From the NCBI GenBank assembly GCA_963920765.1, contig OY987244.1:20192358-20256357 (forward strand): 64,000 nucleotides of DNA. The letters are read 5' to 3'. Below, piece after piece: positions 1 through 63,862 of this stretch (the stretch's first letter is position 1; each line of letters begins with the position of its first letter). The stretch comes from Ulota crispa. Its lineage: Eukaryota; Streptophyta; Bryopsida; Orthotrichales; Orthotrichaceae. The notes below the pieces were generated by a model. It saw only the letters and a program-made list of their open reading frames with translations. It was not told the origin of the DNA and made no database searches. The translations under genes and the position numbers were made by a program.

Positions 1-760
1 TGACATTGGAAGTGCAAAAAAAAGTTTTTTTCTGCGCTACCCAAAAATTTTAGAAGCCTTTGACCTTTCCTATATCAAAAAAATTGCTCTACTCAAAGTT
101 GAGGTTTATTTTTTCCGTGTAGAAGACCAAGTTAGGTATGTGTGGGAGAGTTTTCAAATGAATTGGAGGTGTGAATCATACTTTGTTAAATCTTGCAATG
201 CCATAAGGCCATGAAATTTGAATATACACTAGGTAAAATTGGAGGGTTTATGTAAAATTCAGAAATTTGAGTTACTTTTATCCAAATGGTTAAAACCAAG
301 GAATCTAGTCTATTACAACTTGGGAAAAAAAAGGTAAAATAAAAATACACAAAGAGCTCAAAAAAGTAAAGCAACAAGTTTTACAAGGGGGAAAAGGAAT
401 GGAGGTTTGGGAGTCCCATACTTGCCCACAAACTAAAATTTCTCACTCATCAATCAGAATTGAATGGTTCAAAGTTTCCTACATATGTAGAAGTCTAAAG
501 AACCAATTTCAAATTTTTTTTTATGAAAAAACGCAATTTAAAAAAAAAATTTGAGCGGCCCAACGTTCCTTGTTTTCCATAAATTCATCCATAACTTCTT
601 TAATAAATGTCAAAATGAAGAAAAAATTAGATGCCCACACAAATCTTTGAATTCCCCATCTTTAATAAAAGTTTCAAAAAATCACACAAAGTAGTTTAGC
701 TATAGGTACATGCCTAAAACCCATTTGTCTCTGAAGGGACAATGGTCCTTTAGGGGTTAA
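1..760. mobile_element. TTAA element, family A, left end outside window
   Basis: The right end reads GGTCCTTTAGGGGTTAA and finishes with TTAA at 757-760. The interior matches the family A copies at 1847-2777 and 27852-28783, for example in the block around 20-110 and the CCCGAAGGGACAATGG-like stretch just inside the end. It has no coding capacity. The final TTAA is followed by a CCCTTGAATGC sequence that looks like the left end of a further TTAA element, so two elements may share this target. Confidence 0.75.
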
Positions 761-1040: not shown

Positions 1041-2826
1041 GCATTGTACAATACCCTAAAGAAAGTATATGGAAGTCCTAGTTTTGTGCTTAAAGACTTC
1101 ATTTCGAAATCAAATTTAGTGGATGCTCCGCTGAGATTTTGGAAAAAATTTTGAACAAAAAGAATTCAGAATTTCTAAGAGAACAATTTTTGTTCCTAGC
1201 CAAATAGCTTATTTTGCATGCATATTGAGTGATCAATCAACAAAGCGGAAAGTTGTACATTCAAAGGTAATTTTTTCAAATCCCAATTACTACATCAATT
1301 ACTACAATTCTGAAAGAACTTTCTAAATGGAAACAACTCAGAACTTACACAAGAGTAACTTTCATTTGAGGCTCAAAAGCTTATCATGCATGCTTTGTTC
1401 ACAAATGAAGCCCAAACAAGCATGGTGGAGAGTAGGTGGGGTTTTTTTTGGAACATTTGCGTTTGTGGGGTGAGAGTTGCACATCCACACAAATATTTGC
1501 ACACTTCCTACTTGGTTCACTTGTTTGAGCTTCATTTTTGAACCACAAAAGCATGACAAGCTTTTGAGCCTCAAATGAAAGTTACTCTTGTGTAAGTTCT
1601 GAGTTGTTTCCATTTAGAAAGTTCTTTCAGAATTGTAGTAATTGATGTAGTAATTGGGATTTGAAAAAAATACCTTTGAATGTACAACTTTCCACTTTGT
1701 TGATTGATCACTCATTATGCATGCAAAATAAGCTATTTGGTTTGGAACAAAAATTGTTCTCTTAGAAATTCTGAGTTCTTTTTGTTCAAATTTTTTTCCA
1801 AAATCTTAGTGGAGCATCCCCTAAATTTGATTTCAAAATGAAGTCTTTAACCCCTAAAGGACCATGGCCTTTATTTTGTCAAAAAACACTCAAAAGTGCC
1901 ACTTCTATGGCAAAAGGTAAAAAAGTTTGAAGATTGGTCTTTTTGCATATCTAACCATAGGATCTTGTACTAGAATTGTATAGGAATGTGTCATTCAAAA
2001 CTTAAAAACTTTGACCACTCAAATTGCAAGATATTTGCGTTTAAAGTGTAAAAAACAAACTCTTTTGCACCTTGCACGACTAGATTATTTGACTTTGAAC
2101 CTTTTTAACTTCAAATTTTTGCTCCATGGAGTTTTGAGGTTTATTTTTTTGTGGTGGGGAATTGAGTTGAGAATCTTTGGGAAAAAACCAAAACAAAAAA
2201 TACTTAATTTTCTTTCTTAAAAAAAATATTAAATAGAAGAAGGTTTAAGATTGACCAAAAGCTTGCATTGTTAATAACCTTGCAATGGAATTGAATCACA
2301 ATAATCCCAATGGTGAGATTGTTCTAGCAAGCAATCTTCACCCTTTCCAATAGTTTCTTTTGCAAAAATTTTAAATTTGCATTCAAAAATGAAGTTCATA
2401 ATTTATTTTTTCAAAGTGAAACCACACCTACCTGCAAACAAAAACTCCTCATAACTTTCATCTCATCTATCAAAATTGAATGATTCAAAGCTCCCCACGT
2501 CTATGTAAGTCTAAAGAACCTATTTTAGATTTTTATTTGAACAAAACAAAAAATTTAAAGAAGTTTTTGGCTGCCCGGGGAGCAGCATTTTCTAGATTTT
2601 CATGCATAACTTCTTCAATAAATGTCAGAGTGAAGAAAAAATTACATTCCCACGTAGATCTTTGAATTCCTCACCTTCAATAAAAGTTTCAGAAAATCAC
2701 ACAAAGTAGTTTAGCCATAGGTACATGCCCAAAATCCCATTTGTCCCCCGAAGGGACAATGGTCCTTTAGGGGTTAAGCACGAAACTCGGACTTCCATAT
2801 ACTTTCTTTAGGATATTGTACATTGC
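1041..2826. repeat. Large foldback interrupted by a TTAA element
   Basis: The left arm (about 1041-1420) is the inverse complement of 1520-1847 continued by 2778-2826, with a loop of about 100 bases (1421-1519). Arms differ by scattered substitutions. The right arm is broken by the family A element at 1847-2777, and the left arm shows the uninterrupted version of the same site at 1090-1093. No gene is visible; short open frames here are repeat sequence. Confidence 0.85.
1847..2777. mobile_element. TTAA element, family A, complete copy
   Basis: It starts TTAACCCCTAAAGGACCATGG and ends GGTCCTTTAGGGGTTAA, with TTAA at 1847-1850 and 2774-2777. It is inserted in the right arm of a foldback. The unoccupied arm carries a single TTAA between the same flanks (GAAGTCT before, GCAC after, read on the minus strand of 1086-1100). 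This gives direct evidence of a 4-bp TTAA target duplication. No transposase frame is present, so it is non-autonomous. Confidence 0.9.
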
Positions 2827-4593
2827 ATTGTGAATGGAGGAATTTTGGATGGGATAGGTTGGAGGCCCACACTCCTATGTATAAGGGAGAAGGTTGGTGA
2901 TGTGTCACTTTTTTCTCTTGATTGGGTAAGGTTTTTGTAGCTCTAAAGTAGTGAGGCAGCTAGATCCACTTCCTTTAAATGACCATAAGTTTTGGGGTTT
3001 TTTCCCATTTGAGGAGTTTTTTTTCCATCAAGTATAGCTAGACATGGTCTCATGGGATCAACCATTAGGGATTTTTTTTTTCAGGAAAAATCACATCAAA
3101 GTCCAAAATCCTTATTGTGAAGTGTGAATTGCTACCCATTAACAAATATGAGATTCTCAATGGTGGGGATTTTGCAGATTTACTTGGATTTGAAATTAAA
3201 CTAGCCTTAAACTTTTGATTTATAGTTGGGTATAGAATGACTAGTTTGGATTGTGTGAATACTTGTTCAAGTTTCTAAAAATTGAGGGAATGGTGTTGAA
3301 GGTTCCATATTGGAGGTATGCTAAATTTTCTTAGCAAGATGCTTAGGTTGGCTAATATCCTACATTCTTTGGGGCCAACCGGTGTTTAGAGTATAATCCT
3401 GGCTAAGCCTAAAGAATTAAATAATGTTCTGTTTTTTTCCTCTTAAATGGACGGTTTTTCCTAAATTTTTGAAATCAATTGGGCAATTCTCAAAATCAAC
3501 TAGCTAGTTTGTAACTAAATGCTAGTACTCCCCGTACATTGCTCCAGAGGACCAAAAGTGTTCTTCCATGATTTCATAGGCCACTTTGATGCACTAAATT
3601 TAATTCTGTTTTACCTTACTATAAACTACAAACATCAAGGCATTCAAGGGGTTCATGTAAGTGGAGTAATGGCAAGGTAAGCCAAATATTGTACAAGTGT
3701 CTCAAGAGCCTTGATTGGGTGGAACATCATACAAAATGAGTTGGCAAGTAACGTTTCACAGGCTGCCGGCCAATACCCCTTGCAAGCTTGCACGTGTGTG
3801 CTTTGTGGTAGTAAGAAACTTGCTAGCAAGAGTTCAAGCATGTTCTAAACCCTTGTCATAGCAACCCTTAATTGTGTTGATCATTGTTTTCCAAGCAATA
3901 TTTAGCAATATGAAGCCTCAAAACTTAACATACAAATAAGTACAATCTTCAATAATTTGCAATTGTATGCATTTACATCTAATCTTGATGCTCACAAAAA
4001 TTTGAGATAAATCATGGGCTTATAGAATTTTGTAAAAATTAATAAAAAGCAACTACCTACTAAAAATTGAGGTTTTGTCATCACATGTTTTTTTTATCAA
4101 ATATCATAGTCTCCTAACTCCCATGGTCAATTGTTCCCAAATATTACATGTTGTTTTCTAAATAGATATTCCACTGTTTTTAATGTTCACTTTCTATGAA
4201 TCATGTGATTGAGTGAGATATGATGCATCAAAGTTGTAGGTCTGCAAAAGCTCTAATTTTTGGTGAAAATGGATTGGGTGATTAGGGGTTAATTTTGTGT
4301 ACATTTTTAGAAAGTCGGTTTCTTTTGCAGTAACATTACAGGGGATCAAGATGGTTTAGCTTACCAGAAGATGAAATTGGTTTGGAACAGCACTACGGAA
4401 GTATCGGAACAATAACAACCATGATTCTTAACATTTTCCAAAAAACAACACTATAAAAAAAAAACTTAGAAACTTTGTAACATCTGTAAGGAAGTAAGGA
4501 AGGTAAGATGAAGAAAATATCAATCTTGCCAACACAAGGCGTGTAGTATTCATGCTGATTTGTCTTTTACTTCTTAAGCAATGTGTGTATCTT
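2827..4593. other. AT-rich intergenic DNA, nothing recognised
   Basis: There is no coding frame of credible length or composition, and no RNA gene or clear repeat end. An isolated TTAGGGGTTAA at about 4291 resembles a TTAA element end, but I found no partner. Confidence 0.6.
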
Positions 4594-5243
4594 TTAACCC
4601 CTAAATGCCCAATGCACCCAATTTGGGTGTTTGTAAAACTTTGAAGACTAATAAAATCTTCTCATATTACTATTTTTGATATAATTTTTTATTACAATTT
4701 TGTTTTAAAGTCTATCTTCAATATCAAAAATTGGATTTTGAAAATGAATGTTCATGATTTTTTTATTCAAGATTTTGTACAAGGGTGTCCACTGCAATCT
4801 TGAGTTTTTTAGTGTTGGAAGATCTTGAAAATGAGCCTCAAATACACTAGAGGTTGGAGAAAAATCCGCATTAGAAATCCATTTAAAAAAATACAGAAGT
4901 AGATTTTGAAAGCCATAAATTGGTTAAGGTTAAGCATGTAATGACCTTAAACCTCATATTTTTTTGATGACCAACTTTTTAGGTTTGACATGTGAAATGA
5001 GGATTAGAAAACTTCAAGTCACTTTTGCAGTTTTAACACCCTCATGTTTGAACATTATAATCTTTCAAACTATAAGTGATATTGTTGTGTTTTCTTTTTC
5101 CATATAATCTCTAACATGTCAAATTCAAATTTGTATAGTTATAGTTTAAAAAACTTCATGAGATTTATGAAAAGGTTGGTAGATTGTTCACTTTCCTGAA
5201 AATGGCTAGAAGTTTAGACAGGCCTTGAGCATTTAGGGGTTAA
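4594..5243. mobile_element. TTAA element, family C
   Basis: The left end is TTAACCCCTAAATGCCCAA and the right end is GAGCATTTAGGGGTTAA, giving an inverted repeat of about 15 bases with TTAA at both borders. The interior is related to 11709-12364 and 25838-26493 (shared blocks around ATTTTGAAAATGA and GAGCCTCAAATACACTAGA). Length is about 650 bp, with no coding sequence. Confidence 0.85.
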
Positions 5244-6163
5244 AATTATGATCTTCTTGCTATTGAGTCTTCCAATCCTGTTGCTCTTGAATCTAATGCA
5301 GCTTCAACTTTACTCACTGAAAATAAGTTGCCTTAGCATTAGTAATTACATGAGTAATTACATTTGTGCATACTCTTCCATACATTTCATTATGGATTTG
5401 TATATTTTGAAGTGCAGTGGCAGATTTAATCAAAAAAGAATTTTGATTCAATTTCTAAAAGAATTGTTGAGATAGGAAGTTAGGTTGGATTTCAAAATTT
5501 CACATGCGTAGATTTGCCATAACATATTGAAGTCCTTGTTTGTGTAGGGTTTTATACAAGTAAAGTAACTCAATTATTAAACAATAAAATTTGTAAATTT
5601 TCCCTTGAGGACCAAGGATAATCTAGATTGCCAAAAGTTGATGATGTCATAGAATGTAATCTAGAAGAATAATTAAGAGATGATTTTCAAAAAGGAGTTG
5701 TATAATTTAACCTATAAATCATGTCTATATAATTGGATCTACTATTGTCCTTTTCAATAATTTTCAAAAATGTTTGGAACAAAGAATTTAGAATTTCATC
5801 TTTAATTGATTACAAAGTGAGATATAATGATTTTGCAATGTTTTGTTCCCTCTATGTTCATGATGTCATGTTTTATTTGAGATGACTTAAAAGTTATTTC
5901 ATAGCAATTGTTATTTTTAAATAATTTTGAGCACTTAACGTTTGAATTGGAAAAATTAGTTTACTGCAGTGAAATAAACCTGTACTACTTGAACTACAAA
6001 ATAAATGAACACAAAAATATTCAATAAGAACAAGTTATTGCAAAGAAATAATAATGATCAATTATTCTTATTTCTAAAGACTAGGATTTTTATGTACTTT
6101 CTAAATGATATAAACATTAGAACAGGATAAGTTGAAGTTTAAATCATTAGTTTGATCTCATTA
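5244..6163. other. AT-rich intergenic DNA, nothing recognised
   Basis: I see low-complexity A+T sequence with no gene, RNA or repeat boundary that I can support. Confidence 0.55.
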
Positions 6164-9900: not shown

Positions 9901-11035
9901 ATGATTGATTGTTGCTCTCAGGAAAAGAAAAAAAAGGCAAGCACTATGGCTCCATGTTCTAAGCCTGATCTGACGATTAAAATTCCGGAACACTTGAGAA
10001 ATGTATGCCTAGTTTGCCCTCGTGTGGAGTGTGGTTCAAACAATGTTAAATTTAGGTCTTTCAACAACAACAAGCCTGATCAACCCCGCTTTCTTTGTAA
10101 AGCTTGCAAGCAATTATTCACCCTCGATGGGAAGTTGTTTGTGAGAGAGGAGTCGACGAGCAAAGAGCCTACCATAACAAAATCTAGAGGAATTGTTTTA
10201 GCAAATGCCAAGAATCCAAGACTAGTAGGCCTGTCCAGTCTCTCGCCGAACATGCGGAGATTGGTGAGAGTAGTGAACCATTACGGTGGGCTACGATAAG
10301 ACAGCGGTCTCCACGACCTTCATCAGTTGCAGGAGCCCCAAACGAGAACGGAAACAAGGATGGAAACAAGGATGAGAATGGGGATGAAAATGAGGATGAT
10401 GAGAATGGAGATGAAAACGAGGATGATGAGAATGGAGATGAAAACGAGGAGGATGAGGATGGGGATGAAAACGAGGAGGATGAGGATGTGGATGAAAACA
10501 CGGATGAGAATGGGGATGAAAATGAGAATGTGGATGAAAATAAGGATGAGAATGGGGATGAAAATGAGGATGAGGATGGGGATGAGGATGGGGATGAGGG
10601 TAAGGATGAACACAACGATAAATATCAGAAAAAGGATGAAGACGACGATGAGCCTGGCGAGCGAAGTGGGCGGATTCGAGTGAATTACAGCATCGTCAAG
10701 GTGACGAAATCAGCATGCAGGAGTGGCCGGGGCATCCCAGCAGGAACATCAGCTTGAAAGAGCTTGCTGGCAAAACTCCGGTAAGCTTACTGGTGATCAA
10801 CAGTCGTGTCAAGGGAAGAAGAAAATTAAAGCATATTCTGGACGAATCTCAGGTACAAAGTTAACTTACTGCGGAGGAATCAATGCTAGGAATCACTTGA
10901 ATGAGAGATGCTAGGCTTACCCTGCAGGAGGTGTGTATGGAGAAGCAGGCCATGGCCTTACTTAGAGCTGGAGTGGCAAGCTATGGAGCAACGCCTGCGA
11001 GAACGAGAACGCAAAGCCAGAGACGAGGATGAAAA
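9901..11035 (+). pseudogene. Dof-like zinc-finger gene with acidic repeat tail, frame-broken
   Basis: Dof proteins are plant transcription factors that bind DNA through one C-x2-C-x21-C-x2-C zinc finger. The first open frame (9901-10299) has a finger with Cys39, Cys44, Cys66 and Cys69: the 21-residue central spacing and final CKAC are kept, but the first pair is C-x4-C (CPRVEC). An extra Cys36 would allow C-x2-C-x26 instead. Dof-like residues KF, NNN, QPR and CKAC are present. Coding character then moves one frame back: about 10203-10755 reads as a basic/serine stretch leading to an Asp/Glu/Asn repeat. It shifts again near 10660 to a frame reading GDEISMQEWPGHPSRN, with stops after about 10850. 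A short GT-AG intron (10141-10187 or 10141-10220) could explain the first shift, but the later breaks favour decay. The start could be 9901 or the in-frame ATG at 9946. A second relative lies at 33774. Confidence 0.65.
10341..10640 (+). repeat. Acidic codon repeat (GATGAGAATGGGGATGAAAA-like)
   Basis: Imperfect tandem copies of a unit of about 18-30 bases encode repeated D/E/N/G residues (such as DENGDENEDDENGDE) in the frame starting at positions divisible by 3. The same DNA is open in several other frames on both strands because of the repeat, giving artificial Met/Arg-rich and Ser/Pro/Phe-rich frames that should not be annotated as genes. Confidence 0.85.
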
Positions 11036-11708: not shown

Positions 11709-12364
11709 TTAACCCCTCAAGGTCCAAGGGGACCAAAACTGTCCTTCCTTGTTTGTAATTTGGGATGCCTAAATTTTCTTCATGGTTAATTACAATGATC
11801 ATTGTTTTTTTTAAGTTCTTGTTGAAGTCTTGTTTTAGTATCAAAAATCTGATTTTGAAAATGACTGATTATGATTTTTCTATTTAAGATTTTGAGCAAG
11901 GGTGTCTATTGCAAATTCTTCACTTTCTAATGTTGAGAGCTCTTGGAAATGAGCCTCAAATACACTAGAACTTGGAGAAACAATCACATTAGAAACTTAA
12001 TTTAAAAATTTGTAGAGTAGATTTTAAGAAGCCCTAAATTGATTAGGGTTACATATGTTGTACTCTACATACTCATATTTTTTTGGTATCATCAATTTTA
12101 AATTTGAGATGTGAAAAGAGGATTGAAAGACTTCAAATCACTTTCACAATTTTACATCCTCTGCATCAAATATTATAATCTTTCAATCCATAAGTGATAT
12201 TGTTGTGTTTTCTTTTGCTATGTGATTGGTAACATATCTAGTTTGAATTTGTATGGTTACCATTTTAAAAAAATTGATGCAACTTATCCAAATGTTGACA
12301 TTTTTTCATACAAGAACAAGTTTTGAGATACTTGGGACTGAGAGCATGGGCCTTGAGGGGTTAA
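11709..12364. mobile_element. TTAA element, family C
   Basis: The left end is TTAACCCCTCAAGGTCCAAG and the right end is CATGGGCCTTGAGGGGTTAA, with TTAA at both borders. It is almost identical, in inverse orientation, to 25838-26493, which indicates recent mobilisation. Non-coding, about 656 bp. Confidence 0.9.
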
Positions 12365-12929: not shown

Positions 12930-13842
12930 TTAACCCCTAAAGGCCCAAGGAGCCCACTTTGGGCTTTAGGAGAACTTGGGCAGGCTCTATTGATGTCATT
13001 GTTTGGAATTTTTTCATGAATTTTTTAGGATGGATGCTACTCATCATAATCTACTTGTGAAGCTTTATTTTATGTCATTCCGATAAGTAATGCAAAAGTT
13101 ATAAGGTATTTTCTATTTCAATATCAAATCAGGCAACAAAAAATATTTTCTAAATTTTTATTTTTTATAAAATTTTATAGATTGATACCTACTCAGAAAA
13201 AGTTGAATCACTCAATTCCAAATAATGAGGTAAGAGTTACAAGGAGTTTTATTTTGTGGGCAATGAAGGTAGGAAGAGGGTAGAAAACACATATAAAGTT
13301 ATCTTTTACTCTCAATTTTGAAACTTTTCAAATGAAAATGAAAATTAAAGTTCCTAATTGTTTGTTAGAGCATTCTCACCATTGGGATTAACAATTTTCA
13401 GATTCTTCCAAAATTTATTAGCATATTAGTTGTATCTTTCATTCATCAATACCTTTCACTTTACAATTTTTGTAAAAATGAATTCAAATTGTTTTTTGGT
13501 CAATTTTTTTATATATGCTTCTAACCCATTTTCCAACCTATTGTAAAAATTGCACAAGAAATACAACATACACGCTTTTCTCTAAAAAGTTTGAAAAACA
13601 AAACTTCACCTTTTGGAAGGACTAGAAAAGCCTACATTTTGAAATTTAGGCACATCAATCTTGGAATTGGTGGGGATTTCATTCTGAAATTTTGGGACAA
13701 TGTAGTTGTGCAAGTCAACCAAAGGATCCTACAATTGGATTTGTTAAGAAGTAAGTTTCAATGAAGATTTTGACCTTGGTTTGGGGACTAGTATTTTGAA
13801 GTAGTTTTGGGCCTCTAAACACAAAAGAATTTTAGGGGTTAA
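12930..13842. mobile_element. TTAA element, family B
   Basis: The left end is TTAACCCCTAAAGGCCCAAG and the right end is AAAAGAATTTTAGGGGTTAA, with TTAA at 12930-12933 and 13839-13842. It is homologous, in inverse orientation, to 50820-51740 and 58126-59064 (shared subterminal CCCACTTTGGGC). Non-coding. Confidence 0.88.
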
Positions 13843-13931: not shown

Positions 13932-14845
13932 TTAACCCCTAAAGGACCAGAACCCCTTTTTTAGAAACATAGCAATTTTGGGCAGGTACCTGTGATTAGA
14001 GCTTTTCATATTTTAGGCTGAAATTTTAATAGAATGTGGGGACAAGGTTTATCTTTCATATGCACTAAATTTCATGACATTTGGAATTATGAGTAAAAAT
14101 TTATGGCCTAATATGTTGTTTTTTACATTTGTTGGGCAGCTTGGGCAGATTTTTAAAAATCACTTTCTTCAAAAACAAATTTTTAAAATGGGTTTAGAAG
14201 ATTTATGTGAATTTAGGAAGCTTTGGACCATTCCGTTTGGATCAACAAGATGAAAGTTATGAGGACTTTTTGTTTGCAGGTAGTTGTGGATTCTCTACTC
14301 CAAAATAAACTTTGAAGTCCTTTATTTTACTCAATTTTCAACATTTTGGAAAAAGGATAAAGCCAAACAATGAATATTGTTTATGACAACATTATGACCA
14401 TTGGGATTGGCAATTTTCATTTCCATAATTATATTCTTAATAGTTTAGTGTTTTGAATCATTCTCTACTTCTTTTTACTTACTAATTTTTTTCCATATGT
14501 TATACAACTCCAAATGATTTGAAACTTTTTTGACATGTACTTAGGTGGAATAAGGAACTTAGAGAAGCACCACTCACATGGCCTTTTTTCCTTAGGAACT
14601 CCACCTTTTGAAGGGTAGCTGGTTTTTCACCAAATGTTTTTGAATGTTCAAACCATTCTAACTTCCAATCCACGTGGTTAAAAAATCTGAATTTTTTTTC
14701 ACATCTTCTAAAACCATTCTTCTACAAGATCCTAAGGTCATGTATGCACAAAAATGTTTTTTGTTTTCAAATTTGGTTGATGCTCTAAAAATGGCAGTTT
14801 TGAAGAGTTTTTGGAGAAAACTTTGCTTGGTCCTTGAGGGGTTAA
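13932..14845. mobile_element. TTAA element, family A, inverted copy
   Basis: The left end is TTAACCCCTAAAGGACCAG and the right end is TTGGTCCTTGAGGGGTTAA. The interior is the inverse complement of the other family A copies (block around ATGAAAGTTATGAGGA). It sits only about 90 bp from the family B element before it. The short open frames on both strands at 14658-14879 are part of the element, not genes. Confidence 0.85.
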
Positions 14846-25562: not shown

Positions 25563-26795
25563 ATTATTTTTTGGGAAAAAATCAAAAACACCCCTCAAGA
25601 CTTTCAATATATCAAATACACCCTTATATTATTTGAAATATAAAAAATAACCCTAGTTTTGTATAGAAATATCAGTTTTACCCCTAGTTACCTTTGATTA
25701 TATCCATAATACCCTTGGTTTTTGTGCCTTTTTACAGCATTTGTTTTTAAATATTGAAATGATAACAAAAATTACTATGTCATCATTGCATTGGATTATA
25801 CCACATTAGGCTTACATGCAAATATCCTATATAGTGTTTAGTCCCTCAAGGCCCATGCTCTCAGTCCCAAGTATCTCAAAACTTGTTCTTGTATGAAAAA
25901 ATGTCAACATTTGGATAAGTTGCATCAATTTTTTTAAAATGGTAACCATACAAATTCAAACTAGATATGTTACCAATCACATAGCAAAAGAAAACACAAC
26001 AATATCACTTATGGATTGAAAGATTATAATATTTGATGCAGAGGATGTAAAATTGTGAAAGTGATTTGAAGTCTTTCAATCCTCTTTTCACATCTCAAAT
26101 TTAAAATTGATGATACCAAAAAAATATGAGTATGTAGAGTACAACATATGTAACCCTAATCAATTTAGGGCTTCTTAAAATCTACTCTACAAATTTTTAA
26201 ATTAAGTTTCTAATGTGATTGTTTCTCCAAGTTCTAGTGTATTTGAGGCTCATTTCCAAGAGCTCTCAACATTAGAAAGTGAAGAATTTGCAATAGACAC
26301 CCTTGCTCAAAATCTTAAATAGAAAAATCATAATCAGTCATTTTCAAAATCAGATTTTTGATACTAAAACAAGACTTCAACAAGAACTTAAAAAAAACAA
26401 TGATCATTGTAATTAACCATGAAGAAAATTTAGACATCTCAAATTACAAACAAAGAAGGACAGTTTTGGTCCCCTTGGGCCTTGAGGGGTTAAAGAGTTT
26501 GCTTCAAAGATTTGGCTTGCATTACACTTACATCTAGTTTTTGTACTTTTCATTATCATCCAAGTATTTACAAAAATTTGCAAAGATAGGCACAAGAGAA
26601 TTATGGATATTTTTATAACTCAAACAATACAAGGGTATGCTTGATGTTTTAATAATTGACGGTCCCAAAGAACTAGGGGTATAATTGATGTTTCTAAATT
26701 AAGCCATGAACATTTTTGATATTTTAAATAATATAGGGGTGTATTTGATATTTTGAAAAAATTGAGTAGTATTTTTAATATGTACCCTTGTTTTT
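25563..26795. repeat. Inverted-repeat element split by a TTAA element
   Basis: Sequence at 25563-25730 (ATCAAATACACCCTTATATT, ACCCCTAGTT) is the approximate inverse complement of 26620-26790 (ATATAGGGGTGTATTTGAT, ACTAGGGGTATAA). The family C element at 25838-26493 lies between the arms. No coding sequence is seen. Confidence 0.6.
25838..26493. mobile_element. TTAA element, family C, near-identical to 11709-12364
   Basis: It starts TTAGTCCCTCAAGGCCCATG and ends GGCCTTGAGGGGTTAA. The left border is TTAG rather than TTAA, a single change in the target duplication. The body is almost base-for-base the inverse complement of 11709-12364. Non-coding. Confidence 0.88.
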
Positions 26796-27851: not shown

Positions 27852-28783
27852 TTAACCCCTGAAAGACCATGCTCTTTTTTTTGTGAAAAATATTGAAAAA
27901 TTGTCATTTTTAGAAGGTTTAGTAAAAATGGATTTAATGTTTTGTTGTTGGGAAATCCAACGGTAGAATCTTGCTCCAGACTAGAAGAGGTACATATGGG
28001 AAAAAAATCAACTCATTCTAGATAAAGAAGAGTGAGATATTTACACCTTAAGTGAAAAAAAAAAGTTTTTTTTCATGTTGCTCAAAAATTTCAGAAGCCT
28101 TTAACCACTCTTATAACAAATAAATTGCCCTAGCTAAAGTTGCGCTTTTTTTTTTCCATACAGAAGATCAAGTTAGGTATGTGTGGGAGAATTTTCAAAT
28201 CAATTGGAACTATACATGGGAAAAAATCAGTAAGTAAAAAGAAGTAGAGAATGATTCAAACCACTAAATTGTTAAGAATTTAATTATTGAAATGAAGAAT
28301 GCAAATCCCAACGGAATTAATGTTGTGTTAAACAATCTACTTCCTTTGGTTTAATTTTTTTCAAAATAATGAAAATCGAGTAAAATAAAGGACCTTGAAG
28401 TTTATTTAAGAGTAGAGAGTCCATAACTACCCGCAAACAAAAACTCCTCATAACTTTCATCTCATTGATTGAAATTGAATGATTCAAAGCTCCTCACCTA
28501 CAAAAAAAATCTAAAGAACCAATTTTAAATTTTAGTTTTTAAAAATGTAACTTTTAAAGAAATTTTTGGGCTGCCCAGGGTAGTCCTCCCAAAATTTTCA
28601 TAAATTCATACATAACTTCTTCATCAAATGTCGGAATGAAGAAAAAATTAGATGCCCACATAGATCTTTGAATTCCTTACCTTTAATAAAAGTTTTAAAA
28701 AATAACACAAAGTAGTTTAGCCATAGGTACATGCTTGAAGTCCAACCTGTCCCCCGAAGGGACAATGGTCATTTAGGGGATAA
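27852..28783. mobile_element. TTAA element, family A
   Basis: The left end is TTAACCCCTGAAAGACCATG and the right end is ACAATGGTCATTTAGGGGATAA. The right TTAA has become ATAA. The interior matches the copies at 1-760 and 1847-2777. Non-coding. Confidence 0.85.
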
Positions 28784-33158: not shown

Positions 33159-33400
33159 TTAACCCTTACAGGACCATAGGGCATAATATATAAGCTGCCG
33201 TATAATACTATAATTGGCATTTGCTACCAAAAAGAAGTTTTAATTTGGGATCTCGAGTAGCTCGCTAAAACGGCTTTGATTTATTCTCCAACTTCTTTGT
33301 TGATCTCAATTGTAGTAAAGGTGTGAATCTAGTCCAAATACAAGAAAAACACCTCATATTCTAGTGGTTGCACTGGCACGCTATGTCCTTTAGGGGTTAA
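33159..33400. mobile_element. TTAA element, family E, copy 1
   Basis: The left end is TTAACCCTTACAGGACCATA and the right end is TATGTCCTTTAGGGGTTAA, with TTAA on both sides. Body motifs (GCCGTATAAT, CAACTTCTTTGTTG, CACCTCATATT) are shared with 52957-53190 and 59536-59778. Non-coding, 242 bp. Confidence 0.9.
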
Positions 33401-50819: not shown

Positions 50820-51740
50820 TTAACCCCTAAAATTCTTTTGTGTTTAGAGGCCCAAAACTACTTCAAAATACTAGTCCCCAAACCAAGGTCAAAATCTTCA
50901 TTGAAACTTACTTTTTAACAAATCCAACCATAGGATCCTTTGGTTGACTTACACAACTACATTGTCCCAAAATTTTAGAATGAATATCTCCACCAATTGC
51001 AAGATCAATGTGCCTAAATTTCAAAATGTAGGCTTTTCTAGTCTTTCCAGAAGGTGAAGTTTTGTTTTTCAAACTTTTTAGAGAAAAACTTGTATGTTGT
51101 ATTTCTTGTGCAATTTTTACAATAGGTTGGAAAATGGGTTAGAAGCATATATAAAAAAATTGACCAAAAAACAATTTGAATTCATTTTTACAAAAATTGT
51201 AAAGTGAAAGGTATTGATGAATGAAAGATACCACTAATATGCTAATAAGTCTTTAAAGAATTTGAAAACTGTTAACCCTAATGGTGAGAATGCTCTAACA
51301 AACAATTAGTAACTTTAATTTTCATTTTCATTTGAAAAGTTTCAAAATTGAGAGTAAAAGATAACTTTATATGTGTTTTCTACCCTCTTCCTACCTTCAT
51401 TGCCTGCAAAATAAAACTCCTTGTAACTCTTACCTCATTATTTGGAATTGAGTGATTCAATTTTTTTTGAGTAGGTATCAATCTATAATATCCTATAAAA
51501 AATAAAAATAAAAAATTTAGAATATATTTTTTGTTGCCTGGTTTGACTTTGAAATTGAAAAACCCATATAACTTTTGCATTACTTATTGGAATAACATGA
51601 AATAAAGCTCCACATGTAGATTATGATGAGTAGTATCCATCCTAAAAATTTCATGAAAAATTTCCAAATTATGAAATCAATAGAGCTTGCCCAAGTTCTC
51701 ATAAAGCCCAAAGTGGGCTTTTTGGTCTTGTAGGGGTTAA
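50820..51740. mobile_element. TTAA element, family B
   Basis: The left end is TTAACCCCTAAAATTCTTTT and the right end is GGTCTTGTAGGGGTTAA, with TTAA at both borders. It is highly similar and in the same orientation as 58126-59064, and inverse to 12930-13842. Short minus-strand open frames inside are element sequence. Non-coding. Confidence 0.9.
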
Positions 51741-52956: not shown

Positions 52957-53190
52957 TTAACCCTTAAATGACCATAGGGAATAATATATACGCTGACATA
53001 TAATTGTCATTTGCTACCACTAAGAAATTGTAATTTGGAATTTCAAGGAGCTCACTAGAACCGCATTGATCTACTCTCCAACTTCTTTGTTGGTCTCAAA
53101 TGTAGTAGAAGTGTGGATCCATTCTAAACACAAGAAAAATACCCCATATTGTACTGGTCGCAAAAGGCCATTTGGTTGTTTAAGGGTTAA
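52957..53190. mobile_element. TTAA element, family E, copy 2
   Basis: The left end is TTAACCCTTAAATGACCATA and the right end is TTTGGTTGTTTAAGGGTTAA, with TTAA at both borders. The body matches 33159-33400 and 59536-59778. Non-coding, 234 bp. Confidence 0.9.
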
Positions 53191-54544: not shown

Positions 54545-55977
54545 ATGGCGCCGCGAGCTGGAGAGGCCGTCGGATCCGACGAGCAGATTGCCGTCGCCGC
54601 CCCCGTCGCCAGGACCAACGCGCCCATTCCCCGCGGCCAGCCCCGCGCCGATGGGCCCGCGTGCGTGCTGGGCATCGGCACCGCGGTGCCGCCCACGGAG
54701 TTCCTGCAATCCGAGTACCCGGACTTCTTCTTCAACATCACCAACACCAGCGACAAGGAGGCCCTCAAGGGCAAGTTCAAGCGCATCTGTAAGTGCATCG
54801 CCTCCGTCAATTCCGTCGCAGAATGAATATTGCTGGCAATGGTCGTTCTGCGCTGCTTTTCACGTTAGATAGTGTGGCTTTTCGATTGAGTCAATTAGGA
54901 TTGGTCGTCGAGATCCGTGTGGCGAGTGAATGTCACCTGACGTCGTGAAATGTTCGCAATGCAGGCGACAAGTCGGGCATCCGCAAGCGGCACATGTTTC
55001 TGACGGAGGAGGTGCTGAAGGCCAACCCCGGCATCTGCACGTACATGGAGCCGTCGCTGAACGTGCGGCACGACATCGTGGTGGTGCAGGTGCCGAAGCT
55101 GGCGGCGGAGGCGGCCGTGAAGGCCATCAAGGAGTGGGGCGGACGCAAGTCCGACATCACGCACATCGTCTTCGCCACGACGAGCGGCGTGAACATGCCG
55201 GGCGCGGACCACGCGCTGGCCAAGCTGCTGGGGCTGAAGCCGAGCGTGAAGCGCGTGATGATGTACCAGACGGGGTGCTTCGGCGGCGCGTCCGTGCTGC
55301 GGGTGGCCAAGGACCTGGCGGAGAACAACGCGGGCGCGCGCGTGCTGGCGGTGTGCAGCGAGGTGACGGCGGTGACGTACCGGGCGCCGAACGAGAACCA
55401 CCTGGACGGGCTGGTGGGATCGGCGCTGTTCGGGGATGGCGCGGGTGTGTACGTGGTGGGCGCGGACCCGAAGCCGGAGGCGGAGAAGGCGCTGTTCGAG
55501 GTGCACTGGGCGGGCGAGACGATCCTGCCGGAGAGCGACGGCGCCATCGACGGGCACCTGACGGAGGCGGGGCTGATCTTCCACCTGATGAAGGACGTGC
55601 CGGGGCTGATCTCGAAGAACATCGAGAAGTTTTTGACGGAGGCGCGCAAGTGCGTGGGGTCGCCGGCGTGGAACGAGATGTTCTGGGCGGTGCACCCGGG
55701 GGGCCCGGCCATTCTGGACCAGGTGGAGGCGAAGCTGAAGCTGAGCACGGACAAGATGCAGGGCAGCCGCGACGTGCTGAGCGAGTACGGCAACATGAGC
55801 AGCTCGTCGGTGCTGTTCGTGCTGGACCAGATTCGGCAGCGGTCGCTGAAAATGGGGTCCAGCACGCTGGGCGAGGGCAGCGACTTCGGCTTCTTCATCG
55901 GCTTCGGGCCCGGGCTGACGCTCGAGGTGCTCGTGCTCAGGGCCGCCGCCAACGCCCCCGCCACGGCCGCCGCCTAG
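54545..55977 (+). CDS. CHS: Chalcone synthase (type III polyketide synthase), copy 1
   Basis: CHS joins p-coumaroyl-CoA with three malonyl-CoA to make naringenin chalcone, the entry step of flavonoid synthesis, as a cytosolic homodimer. Exon 1 is 54545-54788 and exon 2 is 54965-55977. The 176-nt GT-AG intron is phase 1 inside a Cys codon (Cys82), the conserved CHS intron position. The 418-residue product has Cys186 (YQTGCFGG), His325 (WAVHPGGP) and Asn358 (YGNMSS), the catalytic three, each exactly 22 beyond alfalfa CHS numbering. Gatekeeper Phe237 and Phe287, Thr154, Thr219, Gly278, Ser360 and GFGPG are also kept, so chalcone-forming activity is likely. The N-terminus is longer than in many CHS proteins; an in-frame ATG at 54437 would add 36 residues. 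It is much richer in G+C than the surrounding DNA. It converges on an inverted copy (61301-62691) that is identical from codon 31 onward. Another type III PKS activity cannot be excluded. Confidence 0.95.
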
Positions 55978-56758
55978 AGTTATACCGGAGGAATCCATTC
56001 CGTACAGAACAGTTCCTTGTAGCCTTCTCAGGGTAACTGTGCAGATTTACCTCTTTGTTCATAAATCCGAGTGGCGTAGTTTCTCCTCAAATCTGGTCCA
56101 AGAGTGTTGAAATGCCACAGTTGAAAGTTTTCGGATGATACTCTGTCAGTAACAGCAATATCTAGCGACAGATGAGGGTTATGTCCCTTCCATAATATTG
56201 AGTATGGAGGGTCGAGAGTAGCGTAAATGGACATTGTAATATAATTTGCCCAACTGATTAAATATGCATTCTTACAGCAGCTCGAGTAAGTTGAATGGAT
56301 TTTTCGGACTGATGCACCAGAATGTGGATGTTAGCGCAGCTGATCTTTGCATACAAAGCTGCAAACTTTCATGTGGAGTCTCTATTACGATTTGAGTGTT
56401 GTCTGTTTTAAAGCGCTCGATTTGCTGTGGTAGTATGTAGACGATGTTTATGGTACACTCGCATGGAGATTGAGAGTCTATGACAAGAAGGGACACGTCA
56501 ATTACGAAATAGTTTAGAGGATATGGCCATAGCCTTGGATGTTGTTGTGGGTACAGAAGGGGGGGGGGAAGTGGCACACAGAAATGTGTTTATTCAACTA
56601 TGTGAGAGTCGGCAATTTCTTCAAAAATTTGCAATGATACTTGAGCAGTCAGAACTGCTACTACACGACGTATGTGCAAATTCCCCTGTTTTATCACATT
56701 AGGGATTTTCGCTACCTTTCTTCCTTCCGCCCATGCGAAACATTTTTGCCAACATGCT
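54635..56758. repeat. Left arm of CHS palindrome
   Basis: This arm pairs with 60521-62643. Positions sum to 117278 throughout the gene, so there are no indels there. Frame-by-frame translation of both strands and direct reading of the flanks show no difference except a G homopolymer (10 G at 56549-56558 against 9 C in the other arm). The arm begins inside exon 1 at codon 31 and runs about 780 bp past the stop codon. Confidence 0.95.
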
Positions 56759-58125: not shown

Positions 58126-58449
58126 TTAACCCCTAAAATTCTTTTGTGTTCAGAGGCCCAAAACTGCTTCAAAATACTAGTCCCCAAACTAGGGTCAAAA
58201 TATTCATTGAAATTTACTTTTTCACAAATTCAACCATAGGATTCTTTAGTTGACTTGCACAACTACATTGTCCCAAAATTTTAGAATGAATATCTCCACC
58301 AATTGCAAGATCAATGTGCCCAAACTTCAAAATGTAAGCTTTTCTAATCCTTCTAGAAGGTGAAGTTTTGTTTTTCAAACTTTTTAGAGAAAAACTTGTA
58401 TGTTGTATTTCTTGTGCAATTTTTGCAATATGTTGGAAAATGGGTTGAA

Positions 58450-58490
<41 letters not shown>

Positions 58491-59064
58491 CCAAAAAATT
58501 TTGGATCCATTTTTACAAAAATTGTAAAGTGAAAGGTATTGATGAATGAAAGTTGTAACTTATATGCTAATAAGTTTTCGAAGAATTTGAAAATTGTTAA
58601 TCCCAATGGTGAGAATGCTCTAACAAACAATTAGTGACTTTAATTTTCATTTTCATTTGAAAAGTTTCAAAATTGAGAGTAAAAGATAACTTTATATGTG
58701 TTTTCTACCCTCTTCCTACCTTCATTGCCTGCAAAATAAAACTCCTTGTAACTCTTACCTCATTATTTGGAATTGAGTGATTCAATTTTTTCTGAGTAAG
58801 TATCAATCTATAAAATCCTATAAAAAAAAATAAAAAAAATTTAGAATATATTTTTTGTTGCCTGGTTTGACATTGAAATTGAAAAACCCATATAACTTTT
58901 GCATTACTTATTGGAATGACATGAAATAAAGCTCCACATGTAGATTATGATGAGTAGCATTCATCCTAAAAATTTCATGAAAAATTTCCAAATTATGAAG
59001 TCAATAGAGCCTGCCCAAGTTCTCATAAAGCCCAAAGTGGGCTCCTTGGGCCTTTAGGGGTTAA
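58126..59064. mobile_element. TTAA element, family B, inside the CHS spacer
   Basis: The left end is TTAACCCCTAAAATTCTTTT and the right end is CTTGGGCCTTTAGGGGTTAA, with TTAA at both borders. It is highly similar to 50820-51740; one difference is an (AT)n expansion at 58452-58486. Non-coding, 939 bp. Confidence 0.92.
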
Positions 59065-59535: not shown

Positions 59536-59778
59536 TTAACCCTTAAAGGACCATAGGACATAGTATATACACTGCCGTATAATTGGTATTTGCTACCAAT
59601 AAGAAGTTTTCATTTGGGATCTCAAGTTGCTCACTAGAAGTCTAGAACCAATTTGATCTATTCTCAAACTTCTTTGTTGATCTCAAATGTAGAAGAAGTG
59701 TGGATTATTTCCAAATACAAGAAAAATACACCGTATTGTACTAATTGCAACGGCACGCTCAGTCCTTTAAGGGGTTAA
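59536..59778. mobile_element. TTAA element, family E, copy 3
   Basis: The left end is TTAACCCTTAAAGGACCATA and the right end is AGTCCTTTAAGGGGTTAA, with TTAA at both borders. The body matches 33159-33400. Non-coding, 243 bp. Confidence 0.9.
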
Positions 59779-60520: not shown

Positions 60521-62643
60521 AGCATGTTGGCAAAAATGTTTCGCATGGGCGGAAGGAAGAAAGGTAGCGAAAATCCCTAATGTGATAAAACAGGGGAATT
60601 TGCACATACGTCGTGTAGTAGCAGTTCTGACTGCTCAAGTATCATTGCAAATTTTTGAAGAAATTGCCGACTCTCACATAGTTGAATAAACACATTTCTG
60701 TGTGCCACTTCCCCCCCCCTTCTGTACCCACAACAACATCCAAGGCTATGGCCATATCCTCTAAACTATTTCGTAATTGACGTGTCCCTTCTTGTCATAG
60801 ACTCTCAATCTCCATGCGAGTGTACCATAAACATCGTCTACATACTACCACAGCAAATCGAGCGCTTTAAAACAGACAACACTCAAATCGTAATAGAGAC
60901 TCCACATGAAAGTTTGCAGCTTTGTATGCAAAGATCAGCTGCGCTAACATCCACATTCTGGTGCATCAGTCCGAAAAATCCATTCAACTTACTCGAGCTG
61001 CTGTAAGAATGCATATTTAATCAGTTGGGCAAATTATATTACAATGTCCATTTACGCTACTCTCGACCCTCCATACTCAATATTATGGAAGGGACATAAC
61101 CCTCATCTGTCGCTAGATATTGCTGTTACTGACAGAGTATCATCCGAAAACTTTCAACTGTGGCATTTCAACACTCTTGGACCAGATTTGAGGAGAAACT
61201 ACGCCACTCGGATTTATGAACAAAGAGGTAAATCTGCACAGTTACCCTGAGAAGGCTACAAGGAACTGTTCTGTACGGAATGGATTCCTCCGGTATAACT
61301 CTAGGCGGCGGCCGTGGCGGGGGCGTTGGCGGCGGCCCTGAGCACGAGCACCTCGAGCGTCAGCCCGGGCCCGAAGCCGATGAAGAAGCCGAAGTCGCTG
61401 CCCTCGCCCAGCGTGCTGGACCCCATTTTCAGCGACCGCTGCCGAATCTGGTCCAGCACGAACAGCACCGACGAGCTGCTCATGTTGCCGTACTCGCTCA
61501 GCACGTCGCGGCTGCCCTGCATCTTGTCCGTGCTCAGCTTCAGCTTCGCCTCCACCTGGTCCAGAATGGCCGGGCCCCCCGGGTGCACCGCCCAGAACAT
61601 CTCGTTCCACGCCGGCGACCCCACGCACTTGCGCGCCTCCGTCAAAAACTTCTCGATGTTCTTCGAGATCAGCCCCGGCACGTCCTTCATCAGGTGGAAG
61701 ATCAGCCCCGCCTCCGTCAGGTGCCCGTCGATGGCGCCGTCGCTCTCCGGCAGGATCGTCTCGCCCGCCCAGTGCACCTCGAACAGCGCCTTCTCCGCCT
61801 CCGGCTTCGGGTCCGCGCCCACCACGTACACACCCGCGCCATCCCCGAACAGCGCCGATCCCACCAGCCCGTCCAGGTGGTTCTCGTTCGGCGCCCGGTA
61901 CGTCACCGCCGTCACCTCGCTGCACACCGCCAGCACGCGCGCGCCCGCGTTGTTCTCCGCCAGGTCCTTGGCCACCCGCAGCACGGACGCGCCGCCGAAG
62001 CACCCCGTCTGGTACATCATCACGCGCTTCACGCTCGGCTTCAGCCCCAGCAGCTTGGCCAGCGCGTGGTCCGCGCCCGGCATGTTCACGCCGCTCGTCG
62101 TGGCGAAGACGATGTGCGTGATGTCGGACTTGCGTCCGCCCCACTCCTTGATGGCCTTCACGGCCGCCTCCGCCGCCAGCTTCGGCACCTGCACCACCAC
62201 GATGTCGTGCCGCACGTTCAGCGACGGCTCCATGTACGTGCAGATGCCGGGGTTGGCCTTCAGCACCTCCTCCGTCAGAAACATGTGCCGCTTGCGGATG
62301 CCCGACTTGTCGCCTGCATTGCGAACATTTCACGACGTCAGGTGACATTCACTCGCCACACGGATCTCGACGACCAATCCTAATTGACTCAATCGAAAAG
62401 CCACACTATCTAACGTGAAAAGCAGCGCAGAACGACCATTGCCAGCAATATTCATTCTGCGACGGAATTGACGGAGGCGATGCACTTACAGATGCGCTTG
62501 AACTTGCCCTTGAGGGCCTCCTTGTCGCTGGTGTTGGTGATGTTGAAGAAGAAGTCCGGGTACTCGGATTGCAGGAACTCCGTGGGCGGCACCGCGGTGC
62601 CGATGCCCAGCACGCACGCGGGCCCATCGGCGCGGGGCTGGCC
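60521..62643. repeat. Right arm of CHS palindrome
   Basis: This is the inverse complement of 54635-56758. Identity stops at the outer end at GGCCAG (62638-62643), inside exon 1 of the second CHS gene, and at the inner end at CCAACATGCT (60521-60530). Confidence 0.95.
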
Positions 62644-62691
62644 CCGGAACACAACTGGAGCCTGAAACTCAACTTCCCCGCTAGGAGCCAT
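61301..62691 (-). CDS. CHS: Chalcone synthase (type III polyketide synthase), copy 2
   Basis: On the minus strand, exon 1 is 62691-62490 and exon 2 is 62313-61301, with the same 176-nt phase-1 intron. The product is 404 residues and identical to copy 1 from its residue 17 onward. Catalytic Cys172, His311 and Asn344 are present. The first 16 residues differ ([16 protein letters not shown] against 30 unrelated residues in copy 1). The chosen ATG gives a start of the common MA-type; an in-frame ATG at 62721 would add ten residues. It acts in the same reaction as copy 1. The 3' ends of the two genes face each other, so readthrough RNA from either strand would be antisense to the other. The separate 5' region suggests separate regulation from copy 1. 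Confidence 0.94.
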
Positions 62692-63405: not shown

Positions 63406-63862
63406 TTAACCCCTGAACGGCCCGAAAGCCCTTTGCGGTTGTATGTATGGTTGTATGTACGGAAGTATTTGAGTTGCTTTGAGGGCTTTTCAAAAAAAAT
63501 TATGCACCTATTATCATACAACTTTTCAATATGTATGGTTGTAACACTTAATTTCTAATTGATTCAAATTTTTGGATATTGGTTGCGACAGTATTTAGTA
63601 CCCTAACCCCATAGCTCAAGGGCCCTTCAAGGGAACCCTTTAAGGGCCCTTCAACTCTGGGGTTAGGGTACTAAATACTATCGCAACCAATATTCAAAAA
63701 TTTGAATCAATTAGAAATTAAGTGTTACAATCATACATATTGAAAAGTTGTATGATAATAGGTGCATAATTTTTTATGAAAAGCCCTCAAAGCAACTCAA
63801 ATACTTCCGTACATACGATCATACATACGGTTGCAAAGGGCTTTCAAGCCATTCAGGGTTAA
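63406..63862. mobile_element. TTAA-flanked foldback element
   Basis: The left end is TTAACCCCTGAACGGCCCG and the right end is CAAGCCATTCAGGGTTAA, with TTAA at 63406-63409 and 63859-63862. The whole element is a near-perfect palindrome: arms of about 220 bp meet near 63634 around repeated AAGGGCCCTTCAA motifs. It shares the terminal motif of the other TTAA elements but differs in structure. Non-coding; short frames across it are artefacts. Confidence 0.88.

Follow-up and report, generated by a model that had tools for sequence, protein, structure and literature searches.

When a DNA element interrupts one arm of an inverted repeat and the other arm keeps the target, does the pair record TTAA-specific transposition, and which enzyme would have carried it out? 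The question arises at positions 1041-2826 of the window, as we call the whole 64,000-nucleotide stretch of DNA that was analysed. These positions form a long inverted repeat (foldback) with arms at 1041-1420 (minus strand) and 1520-2826, separated by a 99-nt spacer; the foldback is itself a member of a repeated family. The right arm is split at 1847 by an insert of 923 bp, which has TTAA on both sides and no coding frame (no stop-to-stop frame of at least 90 aa was found in 1851-2773). Arm alignment places the inner part of the right arm, up to the insertion, at 1520-1850 and the outer part, past the insertion, at 2774-2826, both on the plus strand.

On the plus strand, the filled site of the right arm reads GAAGTCT, TTAA (1847-1850), the element, TTAA (2774-2777) and GCAC, and the empty site of the left arm, read on the minus strand, is GAAGTCT-TTAA-GCAC with a single TTAA at 1090-1093. 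When the element and one TTAA were removed, the arms aligned without gaps over 380 columns with 357 identities, which confirmed the claim of the earlier note that one molecule carries both a filled and an empty TTAA site. The note had described a 927-bp element; the insert is real, but the element proper is 923 bp long (1851-2773, plus strand) and the figure of 927 includes one TTAA. The element is bounded by a perfect 15-bp inverted repeat, with CCCCTAAAGGACCAT at 1851-1865 (plus strand) and the reverse complement at 2759-2773 (minus strand). This length is within the range of piggyBac, for which terminal inverted repeats (TIRs) of 12-19 bp together with TTAA are given as the hallmark in a passage of PMC2872659. 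Based on the ends, the arm alignment, the frame check and the copies, we annotated 1851-2773 as a non-autonomous, MITE-like TTAA element. The 4-bp TTAA target duplication of piggyBac was found here, in a sequence that equally fits a TA parse. The earlier note had regarded the two sites as proving a TTAA duplication. TTAA-targeted insertion is supported, but "proving" is too strong, because the two arms compared are paralogous rather than allelic and a parse as TA within TTAA is formally equal.

TTAA elements in the window and in the genome

By sequence comparison, 13 TTAA elements of about five sequence-similarity groups were found in the window, with lengths from 234 to 939 bp and some borders that are no longer TTAA. 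Together they occupy approximately 8.7 kb, or 13.6%, a figure for the window and not a genome average. A truncated sister copy of the 1851-2773 family lies at 446-760 (plus strand), with its TTAA at 757-760. The element at 13932-14845 shows a partial relationship to 1847-2777, with 70-71% over pieces, and the one at 27852-28783, which has ATAA as its right border, matches it at 82% over 365 bp. One family is formed by 12930-13842, 50820-51740 and 58126-59064 (89-93%) and another by the short elements at 33159-33400 and 59536-59778; a further short element is found at 52957-53190. The element at 4594-5243 (TTAA included) is 76% identical to 11709-12364 over 505 bp. The latter has an inverted copy at 25843-26493. 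The two are 99.4% identical and their flanks are unrelated, which speaks for recent movement, although the second border of the 25843-26493 copy is CTAA. The element at 63406-63862 is almost wholly palindromic, with arms of about 228 bp, and is thus almost entirely a hairpin, in contrast to the short-ended TTAA families.

The assembly searched consists of 157 contigs totalling 274.8 Mb. Exact copies of the 14-mer end CCCCTAAAGGACCA numbered 8,876, of which 7,555 (85%) directly follow TTAA; by our own estimate from base composition, TTAA would precede an end by chance in approximately 1% of cases. The earlier note had held that copies lacking TTAA borders would count against its claim; this was not the picture at the exact ends. 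Its proposal of a high-copy family was likewise supported, since the 18-mer TTAACCCCTAAAGGACCA, consisting of TTAA and the end, was found 18,030 times with at most one mismatch, and its reversed control not once. A broader end pattern, TTAACCCYTNARNGNCC, which was devised after the window ends and the end of a transposase-bearing element on C4 (see below) were known, matched 29,788 times genome-wide compared to 3 times for the reversed control, and with at most one mismatch 26 times in the window compared to a mean of 0.11 over 100 shuffles. The genome-wide matches would equal about 14,900 elements if each had two matching ends, and some have one only. This number of ends suggests that the genome contains about 15,000 or more elements of this class.

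In a search with the window element, 40 of 8,777 candidates were scored and 39 other copies were found at 88-93% identity; with one exception, these cover 923 or more of the 931 bases. Among the 30 best copies, a set biased to close copies, TTAA was intact on the left in 21, on the right in 25 and on both sides in 19. Their mean K2P distance was 0.06 to the majority sequence and 0.106 between pairs, and their left flanks were unrelated (28% identity over 20 nt). Short length, absence of coding sequence, high copy number and uniform size (matched spans of 911-936 bp across the 30 closest loci) are the features of a MITE. MITEs are said in a passage of PMC2872659 to be "usually" below 500 bp, and at 923 bp the window element is longer.

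piggyBac transposases and the probable source of mobility

A genome-wide profile search with PF13843 (piggyBac DDE) yielded 120 matches; every one exceeded the curated cut-off, and the best had an E-value of 1.3e-73. No match to this profile was found in 14 control genomes. Ten of the 120 are free of stops and all others contain them. Translated pieces of two of these loci, L081 and L082, matched the piggyBac transposase structure 6x67 with E-values of 1.6e-25 and 1.8e-17, and piggyBat (9c0f) was also matched. The aspartate contexts IDE, LDN and GVD were all aligned in L082, and the first two in L081, where the piece ends before the third. We take the aligned aspartates to be the catalytic D268, D346 and D447.

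The element ends belonging to these transposases were then compared with those of the window family. For the L081 element, two further long copies (90% and 88%) are present, whose alignments stop at query positions 4289-4290; this is the TTAA after GGCAATGAAGGG, giving the end CCCTTCATTGCC, which matches the window element end at only 9 of 17 bases. No TTAA-CC end was found within 4.7 kb of L082. A stop-free transposase domain at C4:3591922-3593028 has an element end 1.8 kb downstream, where the only GGTTAA within 2 kb behind the domain gives TTAA-CCCTTTAGCGACCATGG. This end is alike at 13 of 17 bases to that of the window element, CCCCTAAAGGACCATGG. Of the window's 930 17-mers flanked by TTAA, 15 agreed with the C4 end at no fewer than 11 of 17 positions, and all of these begin CCC[CT]T. 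Three relatives at 68-73% were found for the final 401 bp of the C4 element. The four alignments each break off at the TTAA, and two of these relatives follow a PF13843 match of like orientation at a distance of 1.3-1.6 kb. With at most one mismatch, the C4 end was present at 793 places genome-wide and its reversed control at none. It is a right end only; the other end of the C4 element was absent among the matches listed (100 of 793).

An autonomous partner was sought by pairing exact ends on C1, which gave three pairs. Two of these (L078 and L079) span an ordinary MITE copy. The third, at 79-5169 of L077 (C1:459878-464968), measures 5.09 kb from TTAA to TTAA and has the exact ends of the window family. 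It was rejected as the partner, as only degenerate frames and no Pfam match were found in six frames at E ≤ 1; it contains an internal high-copy repeat, and its inner part recurs in a few diverged copies. One relative of this inner part, L080, was rejected as well: it adjoins a broken and unrelated frame, and its sole Pfam row was far below the cut-off. That frame (4242-5741) has no Pfam match above a cut-off and carries the motif DGCSSQFKNK, which to us looks transposase-like. Among the exact-end pairs on C1 and the PF13843 loci L081, L082 and C4, no transposase-bearing element had exactly the end of the window family. This weighs against a piggyBac origin, as do the poor match of the L081 end, the missing end at L082, the lack of a recognisable protein in L077, the CCCC start of the family, the incomplete TTAA borders among the 30 best copies and the stops in most transposase matches.

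With the TTAA borders, the single TTAA in empty sites, the copy number, the piggyBac transposase sequences and the similar ends of transposase-bearing elements all observed in this genome, the insert is very probably a non-autonomous piggyBac-type element that was moved in trans into a TTAA by the genome's own piggyBac transposases. A DDD transposase of piggyBac type, encoded on other elements in this genome, would bind the 15-bp ends and cut the element out at TTAA. The element would then be joined into a TTAA of the older inverted-repeat element, which would leave TTAA on both sides. We infer the reaction chemistry and the pairing of this transposase group with the window family.

Another TTAA superfamily could have supplied the enzyme, with the piggyBac transposases as bystanders. 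TTAA duplication is common to piggyBac, Kolobok and Sola3, the three superfamilies which the earlier note had named, and no exact partner element turned up, L077 having the exact end and no recognisable transposase. Nevertheless we regard a Kolobok or Sola3 origin as improbable: the piggyBac elements that carry a transposase in this genome have the ends TTAA-CCCTTTAGCGACCATGG and TTAA-CCCTTCATTGCC, and with these similar ends and the 120 PF13843 matches piggyBac is the best supported of the three. Kolobok is disfavored further by its 5'-RR...YY-3' termini, its distinction from piggyBac according to a passage of PMC9587614, as opposed to the 5'-CC...GG-3' ends of the window element.

Still less probable, in our judgment, is a true duplication of TA by a Tc1/mariner-like enzyme entering T-TA-A alone, so that the element would run A-CCCC...GGGG-T. 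Because TTAA is palindromic, filled and empty sites look alike under both readings. Under the TA reading, an almost strict choice of the outer T and A would be required at ends counted in the thousands (7,555/8,876), and the genome does contain piggyBac elements whose ends are similar and bordered by TTAA. It is the presence of the piggyBac enzyme, and not the sequence of the sites, that decides for TTAA.

Empty sites in the foldback family

The inverted repeat that hosts the element belongs to a family of near-perfect long palindromes with arms of about 375 bp and a spacer of about 100 bp; 68 matches were obtained from 40 scored of 102 first-look candidates. In the window (1041-2826) and at L039-L076, the foldback ends often adjoin GTAC-rich, self-similar sequence. 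The 38 loci L039-L076, minus seven that represent the opposite arm of a locus already included, gave 31 loci with 62 possible arms. Fifty-seven arms were insert-free across the site, two were filled, one of them the right arm in the window, and three had no usable match. At the insert-free sites 44 arms have TTAA and 13 have variants (three CTAA, two TTAT, two TTGA and six others once each). A doubled TTAA, TTAATTAA, was found in none of these 57 arms of the 31 loci. The earlier note had named empty sites with two TTAA copies as evidence against its claim, and none was seen in this comparison, which is of paralogous and not orthologous sites. As piggyBac excises without a footprint, precise excision from the left arm would leave an identical-looking site, but with 57 insert-free and only two filled arms over the 31 loci the empty state is most simply ancestral for the foldback family, and we consider an excised site very unlikely.

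The second filled arm, on another chromosome (C4), contains a member of a different, 241-bp family (TTAA-CCCCTGAGCGCCC...GGA-TTAA) in the very same TTAA, and this is an independent insertion into the same foldback target. First-look candidates for the 241-bp family numbered 783; 40 were scored, and of 41 listed matches 36 run from TTAA to TTAA. Two copies at C1:17878435-17878683 and 17878680-17878928 are arranged head to tail, and their matches overlap by exactly four positions. Judged by these coordinates they appear to be two elements with one common TTAA, so that the border of an element may itself serve as a target. Another foldback copy, on C9 (L070, 1690-2326), has an insertion of approximately 635 bp, which is probably a different kind of element because its site lacks TTAA.

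Comparison with known systems

piggyBac elements have been described mainly from animals, fungi and protists. The earlier note had taken flowering plants as its frame of reference, wrongly for this plant. The host is a moss, as the chalcone synthase of the window, one gene, fits that of Physcomitrium patens far better than others (671 bits for 6dx7, compared to 527 for the next distinct kind in the PDB and 465 for Arabidopsis 6dxb); 6dx7 is identified as the P. patens enzyme in a passage of PMC8580882. The chalcone synthase gene lies in a 1,937-bp stretch that is present as an inverted duplicate with 100% complementarity (54631-56567 and 60711-62647). The window also encodes a Dof zinc-finger domain at 9901-10296 (PF02701, 1.2e-12).

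The mechanism is ordinary, and the host and the number of elements are unusual. With the piggyBac of T. ni (PDB 6x67; PF13843) the system shares TTAA borders, short TIRs beginning CCC and a DDD transposase in the genome, and it differs in that the window family is non-coding, begins CCCC and resides in a moss. The window family begins CCCCT, so that its fourth base departs from the piggyBac terminal motif CC[C/T]T given in part of PMC2872659; CCCTT starts are found in the transposase-bearing elements here and in some other window elements. CAC and other terminal variants are reported for piggyBac in passages of PMC10140906 and PMC12732532. The closest likeness in form is to the coral CMITEs, which in the account taken from PMC2872659 are non-coding and have short inverted ends, TTAA duplication, a filled and empty pair, tandem copies and piggyBac as the presumed source. 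They are around 100 bp long, in comparison to 234 to 939 bp in the window. The family is best read as a non-autonomous piggyBac-type family in a moss.

Reports from plants are sparse in the sources consulted. In the portion of PMC10004981 on angiosperm MITEs, piggyBac is named once, within a superfamily list only, and its piggyBac MITEs have the same superfamily label as the window family. Passages of PMC12732532 describe piggyBac in plant genomes as occasional, for example in red algae, and one in PMC10140906 names plants among the hosts with no detail. In a fern, 1,230 PiggyBac pieces are given as 0.00% (a figure taken from part of PMC6890710). A survey of 207 plant genomes, including four bryophytes, uses five main superfamilies, and its main text is without "piggyBac" or "TTAA" (PMC12550479). 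Among the titles listed for mosses, bryophytes, Physcomitrella and land plants, none dealt with piggyBac in the genome of a moss, with subscription papers and Repbase outside the scope of this search. EDTA, to our knowledge, has no TTAA class. For another moss genome annotated using EDTA with RepeatModeler2, a passage of PMC11704416 gives TIR elements as 29.13% with CACTA as the largest share, which as a hint of overlooked TTAA elements is only a lead.

We suggest tentatively that a native piggyBac system has been active in this moss into the very recent past, perhaps to the present, and that a large part of the DNA transposons in this genome are its TTAA elements. On the same tentative footing, mosses in general may harbor TTAA elements that go unnoticed, since the usual plant pipelines lack a TTAA class. 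Plant MITE surveys that use five main superfamilies, as in PMC12550479, may misfile TTAA elements. A moss with approximately 30,000 TTAA ends and 120 transposase matches offers a plant system for piggyBac target choice, silencing and MITE amplification.
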